From Caldicellulosiruptor morganii (GTDB taxonomy: Bacteria > Bacillota > Thermoanaerobacteria > Caldicellulosiruptorales > Caldicellulosiruptoraceae), in assembly GCF_026810225.1 (NCBI RefSeq), contig NZ_CP113865.1, forward strand, positions 2,128,001-2,192,000: DNA of 64,000 nt, in the 5' to 3' direction. Below the pieces are notes generated by a model. The model did not search any database. It saw only the letters and a list, made by a program, of their open reading frames with translations, and was not told where the DNA came from. Positions 2,468 to 22,845 of this stretch are shown here, piece after piece (the first letter of the stretch is position 1; each line of letters starts with the position of its first letter). The position numbers and the translations under genes are program-made.

Positions 2468-3159
2468 GTCACCTCTTGACTTGAGAGCTTTTGATGATTT
2501 TCTGAAAATTCTACAAGTTTGCCTGATCTGAGTCTCAATGTTGCATCCGCCATTTTGGAAATAGCAAGGTTGTGTGTAATTATCAAAATGGTTGTGCCAA
2601 ACTTTTTGTTTACATCTTCTAAAAGTTTTAGCACAAGTTTGCTGCTGTCATAGTCAAGCGCACCTGTTGGCTCATCGCACAGAATTAATGCAGGATTTTT
2701 GACAACTGCTCTTGCAATTGCAACCCTTTGCTGCTGCCCGCCTGATAGCTCAAATGGGAATTTGTCTTTTTCAGAATCTACTCCCACCATTTTCAAAACC
2801 ATGTCAACATCCAGGGGGTTTTTGCTGAGCTGTGCACTTGAGAGCACATTTTCATAAACAGTAAGCCCATTTATGAGGTTGAAGAACTGAAACACAAAAC
2901 CAACATAATCGCGCCTGTAATCAGAAAGCCTTTTTTGGTCCATAGCAGTTATCTCTTTGCCATCAACAAAAACCCTGCCTTTATCCGCTCTGTCAAGCCC
3001 GCCAAGGATGTTAAAAAGTGTGGTCTTACCCGACCCGGATGGACCTATCACTGTGTAGATCTTTCCCTTTTCAAGTTCAAAACTAACATCGTCAAGAGCC
3101 CTAATTTCGCTTTTGCCCATCCTGTAGATTTTAGAAAGATTTTCTACTTTGATAAACAC
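2461..3159 (-). CDS. ABC transporter ATP-binding protein (LolD/MacB family)
   Basis: 232 residues, the usual length for the family. Walker A is GPSGSGKT (residues 39-46), the signature is LSGGQ (138-142), and Walker B ends in CDEPTGALD (about 161-169). The TGALD ending is typical of MacB/LolD exporters. The start is GTG at 3159 with an AAGGAG site about 10 bases upstream. The protein powers the FtsX permease encoded just downstream. A promoter and tandem operators at 3199-3232 lie directly upstream, so the pair is probably controlled by the adjacent TetR protein. Confidence 0.93.
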
Positions 3160-3198
3160 TGAGGTTCATCTCCTTAACCTTTTATTTTACTACTATAT

Positions 3199-3232
3199 AT
3201 TATGACTCATTGGTCATATGACTGTAAAGTCA
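3199..3232 (-). promoter_or_regulatory. Promoter and tandem TetR-type operators of the ABC operon
   Basis: On the minus strand there is a -35 TTTACA (3228-3223) and a -10 CATAAT (3204-3199) with an 18-base spacer. Over them lie two adjoining inverted repeats: TATGAC-N6-GTCATA (3201-3218) and TGAC-N6-GTCA (3219-3232). A related half-degenerate site overlaps the TetR gene's own promoter. Binding would cover both the -35 and -10 boxes, which predicts repression of the ATPase/permease pair. Confidence 0.65.
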
Positions 3233-3243
3233 CATTTATATTT

Positions 3244-3879
3244 CTACTTTTTACCAATTCCTTCTTTTATTAAAATCCAGAACTGCGACATAGCATTTTT
3301 GAAATAATCTATATCGATGTCAAGTGTAGTTGACATGTTTTGCAAAGCCTGTTCAACTATAAATTTTTTCATATAAAATCCTGCACCCTCTAAAAATATA
3401 GCAATTACAGCTGGGTCAATGTCATCTCTTACAATTCCTTTTTCCTGATTGTATTTTATAACCTCTATTAGAAAGTCTCTTGACTGTTTTAGAAACTTCT
3501 CATTTACCTCATCTCTAAAAGGTGCGTCATGTGAAAAAAATGCACGTTCTATGAGCATATATTCATACTTTAATTCTTTTATCGCAACCCATATACTTTT
3601 CAATGAACTTTCGTAATAATCAAAAATGTTTATATGAACCATATCAAGCTTCTCAAGAAGTTTTAAAAACCTCCGGTAAGAAATTTCTATTGCGTAAAAA
3701 TACATATCCTTTTTGTTTTCAAAATACTGATACATACTCCCCTTTGCAACACTGCACTCTTTTGCAACATCCGATATATCAACCTCATGATAGGGCTTTT
3801 GTGAAAAATGTTTTATTAACGTGTTTGTTATAAGATTTCTCTTCTCTTCCGGAAGGTTTAAAAATGTCTGCTTGGGCAT
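3244..3879 (-). CDS. TetR family transcriptional regulator
   Basis: 211 residues when started at ATG 3879, which has GAGGTGAG seven bases upstream. The open frame continues upstream to 4032, but that extension runs through the promoter and is not protein-like. Residues about 25-50 form the TetR helix-turn-helix (DISDVAKECSVAKGSMYQYF). The rest is a helical ligand-binding and dimerisation domain. The gene lies directly upstream of, and in line with, the ABC exporter. Matching operators sit over both promoters, so it likely represses itself and the exporter and is released by a transported compound. Confidence 0.88.
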   Translation of the reverse strand: MPKQTFLNLPEEKRNLITNTLIKHFSQKPYHEVDISDVAKECSVAKGSMYQYFENKKDMYFYAIEISYRRFLKLLEKLDMVHINIFDYYESSLKSIWVAIKELKYEYMLIERAFFSHDAPFRDEVNEKFLKQSRDFLIEVIKYNQEKGIVRDDIDPAVIAIFLEGAGFYMKKFIVEQALQNMSTTLDIDIDYFKNAMSQFWILIKEGIGKK

Positions 3880-3897
3880 AAATCTCACCTCAAGGTT

Positions 3898-3926
3898 ATT
3901 ATGACTTTTTGGGCATGTGATGTAAA
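3898..3926 (-). promoter_or_regulatory. TetR gene promoter with a degenerate operator
   Basis: Minus-strand -35 TTTACA (3926-3921) and -10 CATAAT (3903-3898) are separated by 17 bases, and the ribosome site follows. The forward sequence TATGAC-N6-GGCATG (3900-3917) matches the exporter operator TATGAC-N6-GTCATA in one full half and four of six bases of the other. It covers the -10, as expected for autoregulation. Confidence 0.5.
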
Positions 3927-4010
3927 GAAAAAATTTATTTTGATTAAGATCTGGCACGCAGTATATAAATAAAATAACAAGAAGCGAATCAGTTGTATAA
4001 AACAAATGGA

Positions 4011-4035
4011 CCTTTGCAAACCTGGTTTGCAAAGG
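4011..4035. promoter_or_regulatory. Perfect 25-base palindrome
   Basis: CCTTTGCAAACC and GGTTTGCAAAGG are exact reverse complements around a single T. The site lies about 130 bases upstream of the TetR start and 75 bases before the adjacent insertion sequence. The form suits a dimeric repressor operator, perhaps for a neighbour displaced by the insertion. A bare hairpin is the alternative. The rest of 3927-4109 shows no gene. Confidence 0.5.
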
Positions 4036-4175
4036 CCACCACTCTCAATTAAGCAAAGCAATTAAAAGCTGTAACTTCCTTGACTTTTCATCCCTTAGTT
4101 ATATTTTTCTAGCCTTTTGCATAAACGCTCAAGATGAGCGTTATCAAGCTTTTCAAAACTTTTAAAAAAGTCTTC

Positions 4176-4237
4176 CTTCCTCCTCATAGATAGTGTAAAA
4201 TCTATCTATATAAAACATACTTTCTATGAGGAGGAAG
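4176..4237 (+). promoter_or_regulatory. Hairpin burying the IS4-type transposase ribosome site
   Basis: Perfect 15-base arms CTTCCTCCTCATAGA (4176-4190) and TCTATGAGGAGGAAG (4223-4237) are separated by 32 AT-rich bases with TATA-like sequence. The right arm contains the AGGAGG ribosome site of the ATG at 4243. A transcript entering from outside would fold and hide the site, while one starting in the loop would not. Confidence 0.6.
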
Positions 4238-4242
4238 ATAAA

Positions 4243-5684
4243 ATGTTCAAAAGTCAAAACAAACAACTATCTTTTTTAGATCTCTATGAGCACGTTAAAA
4301 ACGTTGCTTCTTAGTAACCCACACACTTTGCTCGGCTTTTTCAGCAATTTCATTGATTTAAACCAGTTCATACCTACATCCTTCTTCAAAACTTACTACA
4401 AACACTTCGGAAGACAAAGAGATTTCTCTTTGCAATCTATGCTCTGTGCTTTCTTTGTACAAAAAATACTCAAACTCCCTACATTAACTCAGCTGCGCGC
4501 TATCCTACTCAACTCCTACAAACTCAGAATCTTTTGCAACTTCAATAAAATTCCTTCTATCTCTACCTTCTCAAGATTCAGAAAAATCTTCTGCCATGAG
4601 ATTGAAAAACTCTTCTACAATATCGCAAACTATGCCCATAATATCGCCCTTAAAATAAACCCTGACCTTGCTTCTACTATCATCTTCGATACTACCGCTT
4701 TAGAACCCAAGGTCAAAGAAAATAACCCTAAATTCATTCAATCACAACTTAAAAAAACTAAGTCACAAAACCCTGACCTACAATCTCATCTTGTCTATTC
4801 CCTCACATATTCTAACCTCCCTCAAACTGCTTCTGCTTCACCATATATCACTCGTATGTTCGCTAACGGTCATTTCTGCTATGCTTACAAATTCTCTATA
4901 CTAACTAATGGCTTTGGTATCCCTCTTGTAATCTCACCTGCTTTTACTTTCCCTCAAGCTGATACATCTGATCCATCCTTTGCTAAAGCTATCTCCGATT
5001 CAAAAGCTCTTATCCCTGCTCTGATTACTTTGAATAAAAACTTTCAATACTCTTTCTCAACCTTCATTGCTGATAGTGCTCTTGACTCATATGCAATTTA
5101 CTCTACTTTAATCAATAACTTTAAGTTCTTCTTATGCCATTATCCCTATAAACCCAAGAAACTCAAAATCAAATTCAACCTCACCCACTTCCGACCCAAA
5201 TATCTCTATATCTCCAGAAGGTGTGACCTTTTTGTAATAAGAAGAGCAACCCTTTTATCCGTGAAGGCTTTTGTAATGGTAAAAACGCTTGCTACGTATC
5301 AAGTGGCGTTGTCCTTGCTCTCAAATTAAAGATGGTAAACGCTTTTGCAACTGCCCTCATCCCTGTACTTCTTCTAAGTCTGGTAGAATGTTTTATACCT
5401 ACCCAGACTCTGACCTGCGCAACTTCCTTGGCATAGACAGAAATTCTAATGAATTTGAAAAACTCTACAAATCAAGAGTTACTATAGAACAAACTATCTT
5501 CCAGTTAAAGTCTTCCCTCGGTCATGATACATTATTTTTCCATGACCATACTTCACTTTTTTCTGACCTCTTGCTCTCCGCCATCTGTATGCTTTTGATT
5601 TTTATTCTCTCTTACTTTATCTTAGAATCTCACAAAAACATTACTTACAAAAAACTTCAAAAACTTAAAAAACTTATAGTATAA
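4243..5684 (+). pseudogene. IS4-superfamily transposase, frameshifted
   Basis: Reading starts at ATG 4243 with AGGAGG upstream. An extra base near 4310 (clear against the 26.8-kb copy) shifts frame. The main frame then runs from about 4300 to 5220, and the zinc-ribbon-like middle changes frame at least twice more (NPFIREGFCNGKNA in one frame, RIKWRCPC in the next). The last part, up to 5684, keeps the IS4 signature Y-x2-R-x3-E-x6-K (YKSRVTIEQTIFQLK) and two cysteine pairs. An FDTTALEPK motif marks an earlier catalytic aspartate. With three or more breaks the gene cannot make an intact enzyme. Confidence 0.75.
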
Positions 5685-5939: not shown

Positions 5940-7832
5940 TCAGCTATTTTGCAAACGCCTATTATATTTTTCTTCTAATACACCTTCCTGTTGAATTAAT
6001 GCATTGAGCCGTGAAATTTCAGCTGAAATTTCCTCACTTTTTGCCGTTAGCTCCTCACTTAAAGCACTCTCATTTACTAAAGAGCTGTTTATACTTTCAA
6101 TTGTACTCAGTATACTTTCTGTTAAATTAGGAATCTCGTTCATTAAGTTAATCATGGTATCGAATTCTTTTTTCACAACAGACGTCTCGACTTTCATTCT
6201 ATCTGCAAGTTTTCGTATTTCTGTAGCTATAACAGAAAAGCCTTTTGACTCGGTTATCTTTGAAGCTTCAATAGAAGCATTTAAAGCATAAAGAGATATA
6301 CTACTTCCAATATCCTGGAGTATATTGTTGGTTTTGTTTAGAACATCTATTTTCGAAGACAACTCTTTACTAATATTATCAAGCAACTTAATCTGTTCTA
6401 ATATACCAGAAACCGCAGAAGAGATATTCTCAATTTCTTTAGCATTCTCACTATATCCAACTGCTATTTCTTGCATACTCCTATCTACAACATCTGTTGC
6501 AAATGCCACTTCTTTTATTAACTTTTCAAGTTCAATTTTAGTATTGTGTATTTCATCTAATAACTTGTTAATTTGGGTATTCTTGTAATGCAACTCCTCA
6601 TTTTCAAGAGACACTTTATCTTTTAAGTAATTAACACAATTTTCTTTCCTGTTATATCCATAATAGATTGCAATAGCCATTTCTTCGCAAGAATCATGTC
6701 CACATGCGGAGCAATTCAAATTTCTCCTTTCAGGCGTGGTTTTTAGCATTTCATTGTAGATGTTTTCTAATACATCGGCAGAAGGTTTTTCTAAATACTT
6801 GCGCTTGTTTTGGTATGTTGTTATATAGTCCTCTAATTTAAGTTTCTTATCAAAAAAATTAAATAGTCTTTTACTTTTGTACTTGTTAAATGTTCTCTTC
6901 TTCATAACATCAAATTCATAATCTATTACGTCGATAGGAGTATCTAATTTAGTAGCTGTTCCTTTATTACATCCCTCGTGGCAGTTTAATATGTCAACAA
7001 TTAGAGGTTTTTGATTGTCTGGAGTATTCAAATAGTCTTTTTCTAAATACTCAAATACTATATCACCCTCGATCTGTTTTACTTTTGCATCTTTGAAATA
7101 TGCATTAACATTTTCTTTTAAACCACCTGGTCTGCTAAAAAGTTTTCCTAAATATCCTTCAGCATAATCAAATTTTCCTGTATCAGCAGCCTTGTTGTAT
7201 ATATCACCAAATTCTTCTATTAAAGAAACATACGTTACATTCAACTGGACAATATCAGGAAATCTTGCTATTTCGTCTTTTTTAGCAATACATGGAGAAA
7301 TAAAAACTATTGGTTCGGTTTTTTTCAAATATTTTCTCAGATAAATGCTTACACACATCATTGGACTTTGGACAGGAATTAGATAATCAAGTAGTTGAGG
7401 AACATGTTTTTCTATGTAATTAACTACTACAGGGCATGGCTGAGCAATAATACTTTTTTTTGAAAAACGCTGAATATACCTGATATAAGCCCAAGTGGTT
7501 ATATCTGCACCAAAAGAAACGTCGTAAACCTCTTTAAATCCAATTTCTCTCAGAGTATTTATGAGCTTTCCTATTTTGAAATTAGCTCTTGCAGAAGGAG
7601 CAACAACTGCAATAGGTTTTACACCAGAAGCTAACATCTCTTTAAGCAAAGTAATATCATCTTTAAATTCCCTTGCTCCATGTTCACAGTATTTTACACA
7701 CCTTCCACACTTGATGCAAAAATCATTGTCTAGTTCAATATATTCTCCCTTAATAGTATTAGCAAATTGCACAGGACATACACGTATACACTTGTAACAC
7801 TTTACACACTTTTCTTTGTTGATAGCAATCAT
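5940..7832 (-). CDS. Soluble [FeFe]-hydrogenase-like chemoreceptor (Fe-S / MCP fusion)
   Basis: 630 residues with no membrane helix or signal peptide. Domains in order are: two 4Fe-4S motifs (Cys 9/12/15/19 and 39/42/45/49); a hydrogenase large-subunit-like domain (about 75-300) that keeps Cys133, Cys181 (SPCIAKKDE, the L2 motif) and the Cys284-x3-Cys288 pair, that is, the four H-cluster cysteine positions; a further four-cysteine Fe-S domain (Cys 374/377/382/399); a coiled coil; and a chemoreceptor signalling tip (LYALNASIEASK near 514-525). Related proteins are sensory hydrogenases. This one probably senses H2 or redox state and signals to CheA/CheW or a kinase. The start has an AGGGGG site and overlaps the upstream transposase fragment's stop as TAATG. 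Confidence 0.85.
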   Translation of the reverse strand: MIAINKEKCVKCYKCIRVCPVQFANTIKGEYIELDNDFCIKCGRCVKYCEHGAREFKDDITLLKEMLASGVKPIAVVAPSARANFKIGKLINTLREIGFKEVYDVSFGADITTWAYIRYIQRFSKKSIIAQPCPVVVNYIEKHVPQLLDYLIPVQSPMMCVSIYLRKYLKKTEPIVFISPCIAKKDEIARFPDIVQLNVTYVSLIEEFGDIYNKAADTGKFDYAEGYLGKLFSRPGGLKENVNAYFKDAKVKQIEGDIVFEYLEKDYLNTPDNQKPLIVDILNCHEGCNKGTATKLDTPIDVIDYEFDVMKKRTFNKYKSKRLFNFFDKKLKLEDYITTYQNKRKYLEKPSADVLENIYNEMLKTTPERRNLNCSACGHDSCEEMAIAIYYGYNRKENCVNYLKDKVSLENEELHYKNTQINKLLDEIHNTKIELEKLIKEVAFATDVVDRSMQEIAVGYSENAKEIENISSAVSGILEQIKLLDNISKELSSKIDVLNKTNNILQDIGSSISLYALNASIEASKITESKGFSVIATEIRKLADRMKVETSVVKKEFDTMINLMNEIPNLTESILSTIESINSSLVNESALSEELTAKSEEISAEISRLNALIQQEGVLEEKYNRRLQNS

Positions 7833-9097
7833 TAGATATTCCCCCTCTCTTTACTGCTCTTATTTACCCGCTTTAAAAACTTCTTTCCTCCCCTTTTCTC
7901 TAAAGCCCTGATTTTACTCGGCTCCTCTAAAAGCTCTTTTGCCTTCTTAATAAGCCTTTCCCTATCCTGCTTGTCTTTTTTAGCTCTCTTGCTTGAATAG
8001 GTTATCACCATCTTCTCTTCTAACTTGTACTTTTTGCCGTTTTCATCTTTTACACAATTCTCATAATCTATTACTTTAAATTTAAATTCTTCTCCATAAA
8101 TGCTTTCAAAATCCTTTTTTGCTAAGTATTTATATCCATCATCGTTAAATACTTCTTCTAAAACCATTTTGCTCATGTTCTTAAGCCTCGACGCCACAAT
8201 ATAGTCGTATCCTGCTTCCTTTATTATCTTAAGATTTAAGCTTTTGTTTATGCCTTTATCTGCTACTATTACAACTTTGTCTATACAAAATTTCTCCTTC
8301 AGTTTCTCTAAAATTTTTATAATAGTCTTGCTATCTATAGTATTACCAGGAAAAAGCTCATACCCAACAGGTCTTCCTTCTTTATCTATCAGCATTCCCA
8401 TTGCTACCTGTACTTCATTGACTTTGTTGTCTTTGCTAAATCCACACATCCTTAGACTGTCCGCTTTTACCCTCTCAAAGTAAAAAGTTGTAACATCATA
8501 AAACACAACATCTACCTGAAAGTTAAACAATGTCTTGTTCATCTGGTAAAGATAAATCTCCAGTTCTTCCTTTGCTTCTGCTAATATATCTAAGCTTCTG
8601 TAAAGATGGTTTAAATCAATTTCCTGCAATGGAAAACCAAAATATTGATGTCTCTTTTCATATGTTTTAAATTTACTAACTGGTTGCAGTAGTCTTTGAA
8701 CTGTCATTAAAAAACTTACAATGTCAATATCAAATTTGATTTTGTATCGTCTTAAGCAGTATTCTTCTAAGAATTTGTCTATTTTAAAAAGTTCCCACAG
8801 TTTGCGACAGACAATATGTCCGTAGTTCAATATTGTTCCTTCAGAAATATTATCTTTTGTCAATTCCATGGTGGCATTTTTATTTTTTTCTTTAGCAAAT
8901 ACTTCATAAAGTTTGTCTACTACATTTACAAAAGTCTCATTATTTTTTAAAAGATCATGTCTACCGAGGTTAAGAAGGACTTTTTGTTTTATTTTGCCAT
9001 TTTCTCTATAATTATGGACAATTTTAACATACTCATATCCATCAGCTTTAGTAATTTTAACAAATAAGAGAGACCACTTGAGAATGTTTTTGGAATA
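7832..9097 (-). pseudogene. IS1634-family transposase, C-terminally truncated
   Basis: The first ATG (8869) gives 345 residues, against 499 from the equivalent ATG in the intact copy. The sequence diverges after KRVNKSSKE and ends in a junction-encoded tail at TAA 7832. The DDE core aspartates are present (VVFYDVTTFYF, VVIVADKGIN), but the YxxLxxxExxxxxxK region is gone. In-frame family-like sequence extends upstream of the ATG to about 9097 without any ATG, GTG or TTG (see finding). The stop overlaps the next gene's start as TAATG, so any residual translation would feed into the hydrogenase-like gene. Confidence 0.75.
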
Positions 9098-9145
9098 TCA
9101 TACTACAAAAATATCAATAAATCAAGTTATATGTAGATAAAAATC
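7848..9145 (-). mobile_element. IS1634-type element remnant, copy 1
   Basis: Nearly identical to 21432-22729 of the full element at 20868-22845. On the left it stops at about 7848, where the native leader of the hydrogenase-like gene begins, so the last third of the transposase and one terminal repeat are lost. On the right the match ends at about 9145, where the IS481-like element begins. It therefore predates that insertion or was truncated by it. Confidence 0.75.
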
Positions 9146-9154
9146 TCGAATAGG

Positions 9155-10402
9155 TGTGAAGATATTTACCATAGCGAAAGAATGTGCGAAAATAATGAAG
9201 AGAAGGTCATAAAAAGAATAGAGGCTGCCTCCATCTTGTTTGATATAATTAAAAAGTGTAATATTTCATTCAAAAGAAACATCAAAAAACTACCAGGATG
9301 GGAGGGCAGCCTACTATGAATATTATATCATACCATGAGTTAAGAAAAATATCTCCTGAAAAAGCAAGAGAATTACTCCGAAAAGTGTTTGAAGTAAATA
9401 ACAAAAACGTATCAAAAACTGCTAAAATATTAGGTGTATCAAGAGCTACTATTAGAAGGGCAATTTACGGTCCTCTTGAGGATAAATCCAGAAGACCTAA
9501 AACTTGTCCAAGAAAACTTTCTTCTGAACTTGAAAATCTCATTATCCAAGAGGCTAAAAGAACAGGATTTAGATACAGACGTCTTTCACTTTATTTGTTC
9601 AGAAAATACGGAGTTAAAATAAGTGAAAACACGATAAAGTCAATTCTTAAAAGAAATGCTGTACCAAGAAAGACAAGAAAGGCAAAAAAAGGTGAAAGAA
9701 GTTTGTATGACTACGAAACTCTCATTCCATTTTCTGAATTTCAGCTTGATACAAAGCATCTTTTAGACAAAGATAGTCTTCCAAAAGAAGTATATGAACA
9801 TATCAAAAAATACAATCTCCCACTCTATGAGTGGAACATGATAGACGTTGCAACAAGAACAAGATTTACAGCTTATTCTTATGAACTTTCTTCTGCCTTT
9901 GGCTTTATGTTTGTATCCTTGGTTGCATTATGGCTAAGAACTCACAATGTCAGAAGCCAAATAAGAATAAGGTTAGACAATGGAGCAGAATTTTGTGGAG
10001 GAAGCAAAAGAAAACTAAAGGAGTGGAATGAGATGCTGTCATTTCTGGGAGTAGAACTAACTCCTATTCCACCAAAAGCTAAACACTTGATGGGTATAAT
10101 TGAAAATTCACACAGAGCAGATGATGAGTATTTCTTAATGATTCATGCGGAAAGATGTAAAACAAAAAATGAATTTATTCAAAGAGCCCAAAGATGGCAG
10201 GATACATGGAATTTTTTCAGACCTCATAATGGTAAAGGAATGAATGGGAGGACACCATTTGAAAAATTCAAAGACTCTAAAACTTTGGTTTCCTCCCATG
10301 TATTTCAGTTTCCTACTTTACTTCTTGATGACATTATGAAAAAGGTAGGTACTTTCTATTCTCTGTTCTGTAATAAATTAGGTGGTAAATATGTCTTCAC
10401 CA
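9155..10402 (+). mobile_element. IS481-like insertion sequence
   Basis: Imperfect terminal inverted repeats are visible: TGTGAAGATATTTACC at 9157-9170 on the left, and GGTAAATATGTCTTCACCA at 10385-10402 on the right, which reads TGGTGAAGACATATTTACC on the other strand. Between them lies one transposase gene with a retroviral-integrase-like DDE core. The element lies inside an ABC-2 permease gene whose tail continues at about 10405. The left flank is an older IS1634 remnant. Ends are accurate to a few bases only. Confidence 0.6.
9222..9312 (+). promoter_or_regulatory. Transposase promoter inside a ribosome-site-hiding hairpin
   Basis: The -35 TTGTTT (9236-9241) and -10 TAATAT (9259-9264) have a 17-base spacer. 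They sit between the arms AGGCTGCCTCCATC (9222-9235) and GATGGGAGGGCAGCCT (9297-9312). The right arm contains the GGAGG site (9301-9305) for the ATG at 9316. Transcripts from the internal promoter lack the left arm, so only read-through RNA from outside can form the hairpin. Confidence 0.55.
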
Positions 10403-11001
10403 CGTGCCTTGAAAATTACAATGTTCACACAATCATTGTTCGTCCAATTGCACGCTGGAAATATGTACTTGCAAGATACCTGGGTGCTTTAATTTTTATA
10501 ACCTTATATTCAACTGCAATATTCTTTAGCATCTACACTATCAATAAGACTGTGGGATTTTCTATTGATCACCCAATCTCACAGATAGTTTTGGGATGGC
10601 TTCTGTTTGAATTAATTGCTGTTGTGCTTTTAACTGTTACAACATTTTTCAGCACATCGTTTTCAACTCTTGCAACAGGGATACTTGTTGTACTTCTGTT
10701 TGGATTTGCTATGATAGGAGGTTTTCTGGAGCAGATTGGCTACGCAATAGCAAATTTTTCAAAGGCATCAACAACGCTTCAGACAATCGGTATTGTATCA
10801 AGTTTAATCTTGCCAACTGACAATATTTATCGTGAGATGGCAAATATTCTTTTTAAATCCAATTTAATTGACTTTTCGACCATTGACCCATTTGCGGGAA
10901 TATCAAAAAATAGTGTTTACATGAGAATATACTGGTTTTTATATATATTTGTCCTAATATATCTAACTATTAAAAAGTTTGAAAAAAAGGATTTGACATA
11001 A
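9316..11001 (+). CDS. IS481-like transposase fused in frame to an ABC-2 permease tail
   Basis: Start ATG 9316 has GGAGG 10 bases upstream. The in-frame ATG at 9298 overlaps that site and is unlikely. The first ~360 residues are a transposase: a helix-turn-helix (SKTAKILGVSRATIRRAIYG), then an integrase core with D in FQLDTKHL, D in IRLDNGAEF and E in GIIENSHRAD. The reading frame has no stop at the element's right end. It continues through about 200 residues of a membrane permease with five to six hydrophobic segments. The fused protein would be roughly 560 residues. The transposase half looks intact, and whether the hydrophobic tail is tolerated is unknown. Confidence 0.7.
   Translation: MNIISYHELRKISPEKARELLRKVFEVNNKNVSKTAKILGVSRATIRRAIYGPLEDKSRRPKTCPRKLSSELENLIIQEAKRTGFRYRRLSLYLFRKYGVKISENTIKSILKRNAVPRKTRKAKKGERSLYDYETLIPFSEFQLDTKHLLDKDSLPKEVYEHIKKYNLPLYEWNMIDVATRTRFTAYSYELSSAFGFMFVSLVALWLRTHNVRSQIRIRLDNGAEFCGGSKRKLKEWNEMLSFLGVELTPIPPKAKHLMGIIENSHRADDEYFLMIHAERCKTKNEFIQRAQRWQDTWNFFRPHNGKGMNGRTPFEKFKDSKTLVSSHVFQFPTLLLDDIMKKVGTFYSLFCNKLGGKYVFTTCLENYNVHTIIVRPIARWKYVLARYLGALIFITLYSTAIFFSIYTINKTVGFSIDHPISQIVLGWLLFELIAVVLLTVTTFFSTSFSTLATGILVVLLFGFAMIGGFLEQIGYAIANFSKASTTLQTIGIVSSLILPTDNIYREMANILFKSNLIDFSTIDPFAGISKNSVYMRIYWFLYIFVLIYLTIKKFEKKDLT
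10405..11001 (+). pseudogene. ABC-2 type permease, C-terminal half, split by insertion
   Basis: From about 10405 the protein reads like an ABC-2 permease: HTIIVRPIARWKYVLARYLG followed by five or six hydrophobic stretches. Its N-terminal half is absent upstream, replaced by the IS481-like element and an IS1634 remnant. The last 60 residues match the fragment at 2-184. The gene can be read only as an extension of the transposase frame, so as a transporter it is dead. Confidence 0.7.
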
Positions 11002-11176
11002 TAAAAGACCAGCTAATTAAAGTCAAGAGTTTTTTTAAAAAATTTTGACACCATTTTATGGTATAAGATTCTTTAAAGAGGGCGCAAAAAGGTAAGCCAT
11101 CCATTAGAAGTTGACATAACATATGGAGGCTGAGTAGTGTTATTGTTAACTAATGTTTCGTAAACAGAACAATTGT

Positions 11177-12469
11177 TTATGCACTACAAACTGCAGTTTT
11201 ATTAAAGTATTTTTGAATATGTTCTTCTGGAGTTCTAAGTTCAAAAGGTTTTTTATCGCGCATAACAGCAAAGATAATACAAATAATTTTTCTCATAACA
11301 GCACCTAATGCAACTTTTTTGGGCTTTTGTTGGCACTTTTTCTGATAGTATTCGAATAATACAGGATTACAAGGTTTAGAATTTCTTTTTGTTCTGATAT
11401 TGGCAAGAGCAATTGTAAATAAGATTCTTCGCAAGATTTTAGAACCACGTTTAGACATTTTATTTTTTGTGCCAACAAATTGCCCCGATTGATTTACGGA
11501 AGGATCTACACCAAAGAAAGCAACAAGCTTGTTGGGTTTTGAAAATTTTTCGAAATCACCTATTTCAGCAAGGATAGTTGCAGCGGATAGAAAACCTATG
11601 CCGGGGATAGATTGAAGGAGGTTAATATTTTCCATGAGTGAAGGCTGAGATTGCGAAGATTGCTGAACAAGTTGATTTATGGCTTCAAAAATTTTGTCGA
11701 TATTCTGCTGTAAATTCAGGACCATGTTAATATAGACTTTAAGCATAGTAACAGTTGCTAAGTCTGATATAGAAAAAGGTTGAAACTGTTTAGCTTTTGC
11801 GACAAGTAATTCATATTTTTCTTTGGCCCATTGATAGCTTTTTTTAGAGGTTAGCTGAATGATGGAAATAAGTTTTTCGCTGTCAGCGCCTAAGATATCG
11901 GTTGGAGTTGGGTAGTTTTCAAGTATAGCCAAGGATGTTTTAGAACAAATGTCAGGGAAGACCTCTTTGAAATTGAGCATAATTTGATCGACGACAGAAG
12001 TAAGTCTGTATTTGTAAGAGGTTAGTTCATCACTGAGGTTGTAATACTGGCGGCATAGGTTTTTCAAGCAGTCGAGGATTTCAGATGAAGGTTGTACTAC
12101 AGTAGAGTCAGTAAGTCTAAAAGTTAATGCAATCCACAGGGCATCGGTTTTATCATTTTTTACTTTTCTAACTCCCGCATTTTTGATAGAATTAGATTGG
12201 ATGGGATTGATAATTGAAACATCCCAGCCATTAGAAGTAAAGAAGCGGGAGAGGATTTTGTGGTAATGCCCTGTGGCTTCCATGACGATGATAGGGCGTG
12301 CTGCGAAATCCTCTTCAACTTTTTTAAGGATTTCAATAGCCCTATCAAAATCAGAGGGATTATTGTGACGGATAGTCAAGCGGGCAATTATTTCATTTGT
12401 AGGAGATATAATCACCATTTCGCTGAAATACTTGGCTACATCAATCCCGGCAATAGGTTTTAGATTCAT
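11177..12469 (-). CDS. IS110-family transposase (DEDD recombinase)
   Basis: 430 residues from ATG 12469, which has AGGGAGG upstream. The open frame reaches 12550, but the earlier part overlaps the structured leader. The N-terminal RuvC-like domain shows AGIDVAK, then MEATGHYH, then NDKTDALWIA, giving the DEDD acidic set. The C-terminal Tnp20 domain has the helix-hairpin-helix LLQSIPGIGFLSAATILAEIG and a serine-containing SVNQSGQF motif. It appears intact. IS110 recombinases are guided by a non-coding RNA from their own element, which fits the structured leader upstream. Confidence 0.9.
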   Translation of the reverse strand: MNLKPIAGIDVAKYFSEMVIISPTNEIIARLTIRHNNPSDFDRAIEILKKVEEDFAARPIIVMEATGHYHKILSRFFTSNGWDVSIINPIQSNSIKNAGVRKVKNDKTDALWIALTFRLTDSTVVQPSSEILDCLKNLCRQYYNLSDELTSYKYRLTSVVDQIMLNFKEVFPDICSKTSLAILENYPTPTDILGADSEKLISIIQLTSKKSYQWAKEKYELLVAKAKQFQPFSISDLATVTMLKVYINMVLNLQQNIDKIFEAINQLVQQSSQSQPSLMENINLLQSIPGIGFLSAATILAEIGDFEKFSKPNKLVAFFGVDPSVNQSGQFVGTKNKMSKRGSKILRRILFTIALANIRTKRNSKPCNPVLFEYYQKKCQQKPKKVALGAVMRKIICIIFAVMRDKKPFELRTPEEHIQKYFNKTAVCSA

Positions 12470-20867: not shown

Positions 20868-22845
20868 AATTATCTTGACTTTGTCAGTTGAAAATTTAAA
20901 AAGCTTGAGAGTACTGGGATTGGAAATAAAAGAGTGGGAAATTTGTCACTACACTATTTCCTTACCCCATATTTTTCTATTGCTTCCTCTATCATCATCA
21001 AATTCTTTGGCATATCTATCTTCATAACCTGTAATATCTCCTTCGCTTCTTGCTCTATCTTCGCCTTCAGTAAAATCTTCTTCCCTTCTACATCTATTTG
21101 CATAAAATTCATCGAATTTATTGCTTCCTTTATTTTTTCACTACTCATATCTTTTCCTTTTTCTCTTAATTTAAATTCCAATGTCCTTTCTAACAGAAAT
21201 ACCAAAAAACAAACTACAAAATGTCCTCTTATTCGTTTCTCGGTCCAATGAAAAATGGGTCTTACCTCCAAGGAACTTTTCATCACCCTAAATGATTCCT
21301 CTATTTTCCATAAATCATGGTATGCTCTTAAAATCTCTTCAGCTGTCATGTCTAATTTACTTGTTTGAATTGCATAATACCCATCAAATCTTTCATCTTC
21401 CTTTATCGCTTCTTCATCAAGTTGATACTCCTCTTTACTGCTCTTATTTACCCGCTTTAAAAACTTCTTCCCTCCCCTTTTCTCTAAAGCCCTGATTTTA
21501 CTCGACTCCTCTAAAAGCTCTTTTGCCTTCTTAATAAGCCTTTCCCTATCCTGCTTGTCTTTTTTAGCTCTTTTGCTTGAATAGGTTATCACCATCTTCT
21601 CTTCTAACTTGTACTTTTTGCCGTTTTCATCTTTTACACAATTCTCATAATCTATTATTTTAAATTTAAATTCTTCTTCATAAATGCTTTCAAAATCCTT
21701 ATTTGCTAAGTATTTATATCCATCATCGTTAAATACTTCTTCTAAAACTATTTTGCTCATGTTCTTAAGCCTCGACGCCACAATATAGTCGTATCCTGCT
21801 TCCTTTATTATCTTAAGATTTAAGCTTTTGTTTATGCCTTTATCTGCTACTATTACAACTTTGTCTATACAAAATTTCTCCTTCAGTTTCTCTAAAATTT
21901 TTATAATAGTCTTGCTATCTATAGTATTACCAGGAAAAAGCTCATACCCAACAGGTCTTCCTTCTTTATCTATCAGCATTCCCATTACTACCTGTACTTC
22001 ATTGACTTTGTTGTCTTTGCTAAATCCACACATCCTTAGACTGTCCGCTTTTACCCTCTCAAAGTAAAAAGTTGTAACATCATAAAACACAACATCTACC
22101 TGAAAGTTAAACAATGTCTTGTTCATCTGGTAAAGATAAATCTCCAGTTCTTCCTTTGCCTCTGCTAATATATCTAAGCTTCTGTAAAGATGGTTTAAAT
22201 CAATTTCCTGCAATGGAAAACCAAAATATTGATGTCTCTTTTCATATGTTTTAAATTTACTAACTGGTTGCAGTAGTCTTTGAACTGTCATTAAAAAACT
22301 TACAATGTCAATATCAAATTTGATTTTGTATCGTCTTAAGCAGTATTCTTCTAAGAATTTGTCTATTTTAAAAAGTTCCCACAGTTTGCGACAGACAATA
22401 TGTCCGTAGTTCAATATTGTTTCTTCAGAAATATTATCTTTTGTCAATTCCATGGTGGCATTTTTATTTTTTTCTTTAGCAAATACTTCATAAAGTTTGT
22501 CTACTACATTTACAAAAGTCTCATTATTTTTTAAAAGATCATGTCTACCGAGGTTAAGAAGGACTTTTTGTTTTATTTTGCCATTTTCTCTATAATTATG
22601 GACAATTTTAACATACTCATATCCATCAGCTTTAGTAATTTTAACAAATAAGAAAGACCACTTGAGAATGTTTTTGGAATATCATACTACAAAAATATCA
22701 ATAAATCAAGTCATGTTAGGATAAAAATGGAAGTTATTTGTCCCTACATGACAAAAAATTTTTTATTTTTTTTGGTCCGCAAACCCGCATAAATTAAAAC
22801 TTTTACATTTTTTGGACCTCAAAAACTGACAAAGTCAAGATAATT
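20868..22845 (-). mobile_element. Full-length IS1634-type element, copy 2
   Basis: 22-base perfect terminal inverted repeats: AATTATCTTGACTTTGTCAG.. at 20868-20889, and its reverse complement ending at 22845. The 1.98-kb element holds one transposase gene. A truncated copy lies at 7848-9145. I could not identify a target-site duplication with confidence. Confidence 0.85.
20954..22453 (-). CDS. IS1634-family transposase
   Basis: 499 residues from the first ATG (22453). The DDE core shows VVFYDVTTFYF, VVIVADKGIN, and the C-terminal YHDLWKIEESFRVMK signature of the IS1634 branch. Family-like sequence continues in frame upstream (KADGYEYVKIVHNYRENGK and VLLNLGRHDLL) up to a stop near 22682. No ATG, GTG or TTG lies there, so the true start is uncertain. 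The gene otherwise appears intact. Confidence 0.85.
   Translation of the reverse strand: MELTKDNISEETILNYGHIVCRKLWELFKIDKFLEEYCLRRYKIKFDIDIVSFLMTVQRLLQPVSKFKTYEKRHQYFGFPLQEIDLNHLYRSLDILAEAKEELEIYLYQMNKTLFNFQVDVVFYDVTTFYFERVKADSLRMCGFSKDNKVNEVQVVMGMLIDKEGRPVGYELFPGNTIDSKTIIKILEKLKEKFCIDKVVIVADKGINKSLNLKIIKEAGYDYIVASRLKNMSKIVLEEVFNDDGYKYLANKDFESIYEEEFKFKIIDYENCVKDENGKKYKLEEKMVITYSSKRAKKDKQDRERLIKKAKELLEESSKIRALEKRGGKKFLKRVNKSSKEEYQLDEEAIKEDERFDGYYAIQTSKLDMTAEEILRAYHDLWKIEESFRVMKSSLEVRPIFHWTEKRIRGHFVVCFLVFLLERTLEFKLREKGKDMSSEKIKEAINSMNFMQIDVEGKKILLKAKIEQEAKEILQVMKIDMPKNLMMIEEAIEKYGVRK

Follow-up and report, generated by a model that had tools for sequence, protein, structure and literature searches.

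Does a protein that joins a hydrogenase-type metal site to a chemoreceptor tip convey information on H2, or on redox state, to the chemotaxis machinery? The question is raised by a 630-aa reading frame encoded within a 64,000-nucleotide stretch of the Caldicellulosiruptor morganii genome (hereafter, the window). The signalling role of sensory hydrogenases has been assigned mostly from domain content, and a member fused to a methyl-accepting chemotaxis protein (MCP) domain would offer a direct read-out, through CheA activity and swimming, of whether such domains sense H2. The concept of a chemotactic [FeFe]-hydrogenase has been known since 2016, when the HydDB description of group C2 introduced "chemotactic (putative)" [FeFe]-hydrogenases, possible H2 sensors that would signal by way of methyl-accepting chemotaxis proteins (PMC5037454); later surveys repeat or discard the C2 class (PMC9431212; PMC12456013). 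We propose, with a probability of roughly 0.55, that the 630-aa protein belongs to the sensory [FeFe]-hydrogenases of C2 type and serves as a soluble chemoreceptor in which H2/redox sensing is coupled to CheA.

Domain architecture of the 630-aa protein

The protein exhibits a modular structure, whose coordinates are given in Table 1. In the Pfam analysis, the Fer4 pair spans residues 2–54, Fe_hyd_lg_C (PF02906) matched residues 73–291 with 103.3 bits (cut-off 22.1), and MCPsignal (PF00015) matched residues 495–612 with 45.8 bits (cut-off 34.6; 45.7–55 bits in the orthologs). The FeS profile PF04060 scored 21.1 bits at residues 372–400, marginally below its cut-off of 23, which is exceeded in most of the relatives for which this profile was listed. 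The original prediction had named these last three profiles, and it stood for Fe_hyd_lg_C and MCPsignal, while PF04060 fell just short. No membrane helix was detected among the 19-residue windows of the protein (maximum Kyte-Doolittle value of 1.34), and this hydropathy scan rules out a transmembrane receptor. The earlier picture of a soluble protein carrying two ferredoxin clusters, an H-domain, an Fe-S domain and an MCP tip is therefore upheld by the reading frame, the Pfam matches and the lack of a membrane helix. No Pfam match to a PAS domain was found after the FeS motif, and the MCP hairpin comes directly next.

Sixteen of the 17 cysteines occupy cluster-ligand positions, those of the C-terminal Fe-S motif being C374, C377, C382 and C399, and C160 is the sole extra cysteine. 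The dN/dS values among intact orthologs were low (~0.08–0.10 for diverged pairs and 0.18–0.19 for the two closest pairs), with purifying selection acting on both halves of the protein (~0.07–0.12 between diverged pairs, and ~0.07–0.09 for the MCP half). Because of these low values and the invariance of the ligands in 33 sequences, the reading frame is not a product of chance; together with the Pfam scores, they rule out a chance match or a frame artefact. The AF2 models, built from 5–6 alignment rows, were of low confidence (pLDDT 53 and 58). The low-confidence model places the hairpin helices at residues 397–525 and 530–629, and Foldseek searches with the AF2 models ranked [FeFe]-hydrogenases first, a result that supports the fold only and not the geometry of the cysteines.

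Table 1. Features of the hydrogenase–MCP gene and its surroundings (positions in the window)
Feature	Position	Strand	Basis or remark
Whole gene, 630 aa	5940..7832	-	Ferredoxin pair, H-domain, FeS, MCP hairpin; ORF and Pfam
Residues 1–54, two 4Fe-4S motifs (C9 C12 C15 C19; C39 C42 C45 C49)	7671..7832	-	Fer4
Residues 73–291, [FeFe]-hydrogenase H-domain	6960..7616	-	PF02906 and alignment to solved HydA 7p5h
Motif L1, QPCP (131–134)	7431..7442	-	C133 = CpI C300; P132 in place of the proton-transfer Cys C299
Motif L2, SPCIAKKDE (179–187)	7272..7298	-	C181 = CpI C355; K184 = CpI K358; S179 for M353
Motif L3, LNCHEGCNKG (282–291)	6960..6989	-	C284 = CpI C499; C288 = CpI C503; L282 for M497
Residues 374–399, Cx2Cx4Cx16C Fe-S motif	6636..6713	-	Exact match to the M2e/M2f motif; invariant
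Residues 400–630, long antiparallel helical hairpin and MCP signalling domain	5943..6635	-	PF00015; AF2 hairpin
Residues 524–532, SKITESKGF, receptor tip loop	6237..6263	-	Canonical turn, RAGExGxGF, has one residue more
Remaining native leader, 14 bp, with AGGGGG ribosome-binding site	7833..7846	-	Homology to the G004 locus stops at 7846
3'-truncated IS1634-family copy, replacing the native upstream region	7847..9144	-	NF033559 match, 37–339 of 483
IS1182-family element at the stop codon	4111..5961	+	12-bp direct repeats, 4099–4110 and 5962–5973

The putative H-cluster site

In the alignment with solved hydrogenases, C133, C181, C284 and C288 line up with the ligands of the H-cluster, and the family profile aligned with HydA 7p5h in one piece that takes in the ferredoxin part and the motifs L1, L2 and L3. 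The four cysteine positions singled out in the original prediction thus correspond to the ligands of L1, L2, L3 and L3, respectively. The invariant columns of the 33-sequence alignment include all 16 cluster cysteines, K184 (CpI K358) and P132-C133-P134. The stretch from L2 to L3 is shorter than in catalytic enzymes, from which the protein also differs by several swaps near the 2Fe site (C299P, Q325M, M353S and M497L in CpI numbering). Among the sensory sequences of HydDB, Pro is found in ~10% at position 299 and Ser in ~32% at position 353 (PMC10055695), and in TamHydS, a slow enzyme, positions 353 and 497 are occupied by Ser and Leu, respectively (PMC11803613). Judged by these comparisons, the C299P and M353S swaps are among those reported for sensory enzymes, and sensory enzymes with comparable swaps retain the H-cluster and show slow turnover. 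The Cx2Cx4Cx16C motif has been given for M2e/M2f enzymes and is a hallmark of the sensory groups C and D (PMC8163306).

Maturases and chemotaxis proteins in the genomes that carry the module

The window genome, a single contig of 2.48 Mb, encodes three H-domain proteins: a HydA-type protein of 579 aa, a group D-like protein of 448 aa and the 630-aa protein. It also encodes the maturases HydE (420 bits), HydF (596 bits) and HydG (657 bits), together with two CheA and five CheW-domain matches above cut-off, two of the latter lying within the CheA frames. A further five MCP matches exceed the cut-off. On genome content, the earlier claim of a sensor tied to chemotaxis therefore survives.

Across the 25 genomes with MCP-type members, CheA was present in 24, the exception being G371 (95% complete), and HydG was above cut-off in 22. 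The genomes with MCP-type members in which HydG did not exceed the cut-off were G056 (98%), G350 (99%) and G143 (81%); the same result was obtained for the near-complete genomes G355 and G131, in which the module has a kinase or sigma-54 output. HydG was found in 27 of the 32 genomes with the module, a count that, having no phylum background rate for HydG beside it, indicates compatibility and not association. Since some of the near-complete genomes bearing the module are without HydG, H2 sensing may not be universal. G056, G350, G355 and G131 are candidates for an H-domain without the [2Fe] subcluster.

Related modules and swapped outputs

Intact orthologs were present in four of the 12 genomes of the genus. 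One of the four is the window genome, and the 630-aa protein shares 97, 90 and 89% identity with the orthologs from the other three. The remaining eight congeners lack an intact copy: in G011 the gene survives as a remnant riddled with stop codons, and no ortholog was found in the other seven. This remnant is a pseudogene at about 8732–8934 of L083. Two remoter orthologs (52 and 45% identity) occur in another family of the same class. When 398 genomes were searched, at least 20 hydrogenase–MCP fusions were found across the phylum, and the MCP domain exceeded its Pfam cut-off in every MCP-type member scanned. A contig scan with the single protein as query returned distant relatives only. Scans of viral contigs yielded next to nothing of use, the "phage" matches falling on unannotated contigs of faecal samples that look like bacterial DNA.

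A maximum-likelihood tree was built from 62 input modules, with some of the output labels set by motif instead of Pfam. The 630-aa protein falls inside a 100/100 clade of 38 modules that stands apart from the PAS and group D types. Twenty-four of these 38 modules end in an MCP domain, and the other outputs of the clade are a histidine kinase, a sigma-54 activator or GGDEF. Because the MCP label requires at least five changes on the whole tree, outputs have been swapped repeatedly; the joining of one kind of input module to kinase, sigma-54 and GGDEF outputs is as expected of a sensor. L140/L141 represent a second, separate MCP-fused lineage, and the member from Acetoanaerobium noterae (L150) shows 36% identity and a canonical tip.

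Fusions to sigma-54 activators were observed in L104, L108, L131, L132, L135, L136, L137, L144, L148 and L149, the output being confirmed with Pfam in L104, L135, L136, L137, L144 and L148 and assigned by motif in the remainder; such a fusion could possibly constitute a metal-cluster transcription activator. Fusions to GGDEF, located at L098:1477-3234 and L143:1502-3886 (the latter with GGDEF plus an HD domain), tie the module to cyclic-di-GMP signalling. In L006, from a Bacteroidetes MAG, two further H-domain sensor-like proteins encoded at 2719–4593 and 9357–11318 lie around one hydrogenase operon, and the output part of the 2719–4593 product (625 aa) gave no Pfam match.

A shortened tip in the receptor hairpin

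The tip of the 630-aa protein reads LNASIEASKITES-KGFSVIA, against the canonical LNAAIEAARAGExGxGFAVVA, so that it is one residue short and the loop glycines are gone. This gap is common to all six members of the branch (the 630-aa protein, L010–L012, L052 and L053), and it is absent from 17 other MCP-type relatives and from the five other MCPs examined in the same genome. The tip retains L517, N518, E522, G531, F532 and V534, and segments resembling methylation helices are conserved on both arms of the hairpin (SMxExxxGYSE and SAxxEELTAKxEEIS). In a narrow literature search on receptor tips, no description of the shortened tip as a lineage feature was found, and it appears to be new here.

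Members of the short-tip branch might, for instance, form a minority within mixed arrays or work with another partner. That the branch constitutes a distinct receptor type, in which an H2/redox H-cluster module acts on a rod whose glycine-poor, short tip contacts its partners in a manner unlike that of standard MCPs, is a speculative extension that we regard as rather improbable.

Insertion sequences and exchange at the locus

At the orthologous loci, the gene has a TetR/ABC-transporter group on one side and, on the other, a gene whose product is a long hydrophobic protein. In the window, insertion sequences border it at both ends (Table 1). Upstream, the stop codon of the IS1634 transposase overlaps the ATG codon of the hydrogenase–MCP gene (TAATG), and a fuller IS1634-family copy, 98.8% identical to that at 7847–9144, is located at 21431–22728. 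Downstream, the IS1182-type insertion displaced the stop codon, and the frame consequently extends a few residues beyond the end of the ortholog (EEK). The region 5965–7846 is 97.5% identical at the DNA level to the G004 ortholog, against 76–90% for the flanks, a difference that suggests a recent exchange between lineages.

Proposed function and alternative readings

For the function of the 630-aa protein we infer the following chain of events. The H-cluster would be built in the H-domain by HydE, HydF and HydG, and H2 or a ferredoxin redox signal would change the state of this domain. The change would be passed through the C-terminal FeS domain to the dimeric MCP hairpin, which would alter the activity of CheA through CheW, and swimming would then follow H2 or redox conditions in a direction that belongs to the same conditional scheme. 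In the related group D enzyme, H2 does not reduce the C-terminal cluster (PMC13104023), and transmission there is therefore likely conformational, not electron transfer via that cluster. Should the proposed function be true, bacteria that make or use H2 could steer by H2 via a metal-cluster receptor. A single kind of input module would then have been connected to chemotaxis as well as to two-component, sigma-54 and cyclic-di-GMP outputs.

In favour of the C2-type reading we counted the domains, the conserved ligands together with K358, the Cx2Cx4Cx16C motif, the residue swaps shared with sensory enzymes, the selection, the maturase and Che genes, their co-occurrence with the module and the swapped outputs. 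Counted against it were the short, glycine-poor tip, the genomes without HydG, the IS-replaced upstream region, the eight of 12 congeners without an intact copy, the unreduced C-terminal cluster of the group D relative, and the fact that no experiment on any member, that is, on an MCP-fused [FeFe]-hydrogenase, was found in the open-access literature, which is weak evidence of absence.

Several of these points also bear on other readings. The near-complete genomes that keep the module without HydG, and the residues of the 2Fe site that depart from those of catalytic enzymes, would fit a chemoreceptor for the redox state of ferredoxin that does not bind H2, whose four cysteines would hold a 4Fe-4S cluster only, as in NARF-like homologs, and whose cluster chain would report on the ferredoxin pool. 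Yet K358 is invariant, HydG accompanies the module in most of its genomes, and TmHydS and TamHydS hold an H-cluster although they too lack C299, M353 and M497; we consider this reading about a one-in-four prospect, clearly behind the C2-type reading. It is more doubtful still that the H2/redox input is retained while the MCP hairpin is uncoupled from canonical CheA/CheW arrays and serves another signalling route or acts as a weak modulator. The tip, altered in six of six branch members and in no other MCP examined, points in that direction, whereas the tip residues that are kept, the low dN/dS of the MCP half and the conserved ELTAKxEEIS segment argue against it. Finally, the gene of the window genome could be decaying and silent, left behind after the IS insertions, given that a truncated IS has replaced its native upstream region, that a second IS displaced its stop codon, and that among the congeners G011 retains a pseudogene remnant while seven others gave no match. 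Against this, the frame is intact, the ribosome-binding site and all ligands are kept, and the close DNA identity to the G004 ortholog is accompanied by a dN/dS of 0.19, so that we hold decay to be very improbable.

Relation to known systems

The 630-aa protein is probably a member of HydDB C2, a placement that draws on its domain content and its position in the tree. In both cases a hydrogenase-type input is linked to an MCP output; the branch of the 630-aa protein differs by its short receptor tip, and the description of group C2 consulted (PMC5037454) is silent on whether its members carry both parts in one chain. The novelty that the original prediction implied for a sensory hydrogenase ending in an MCP tip cannot be maintained, given the C2 class of 2016 and the MCP fusions widespread in the phylum. 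Besides the tip, what is new here comprises the IS-flanked locus, the restriction of intact copies to four of 12 congeners, and the genomes that carry the module without HydG.

TmHydS of Thermotoga maritima (group C, M2f) shares with the 630-aa protein two N-terminal clusters, an H-domain without C299 and the C-terminal Cx2Cx4Cx16C motif, but it contains a PAS domain and carries Ala 299, Gly 353 and Ser 497 where the 630-aa protein has Pro, Ser and Leu. TamHydS (group D, M2e) resembles the 630-aa protein in its clusters and H-domain, in the FeS motif at the C-terminus, and in M353S and M497L; in contrast, it has no output domain, and a 100/100 branch parts group D from the clade of the 630-aa protein. 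Soluble MCPs, such as the soluble chemoreceptor of Thermotoga maritima (PDB 3g67), likewise consist of a cytoplasmic antiparallel hairpin without a membrane anchor, from which the 630-aa protein is distinguished by its metal-cluster input and its shortened tip loop. The paralog related to TamHydS in the same genome is L023 (448 aa).
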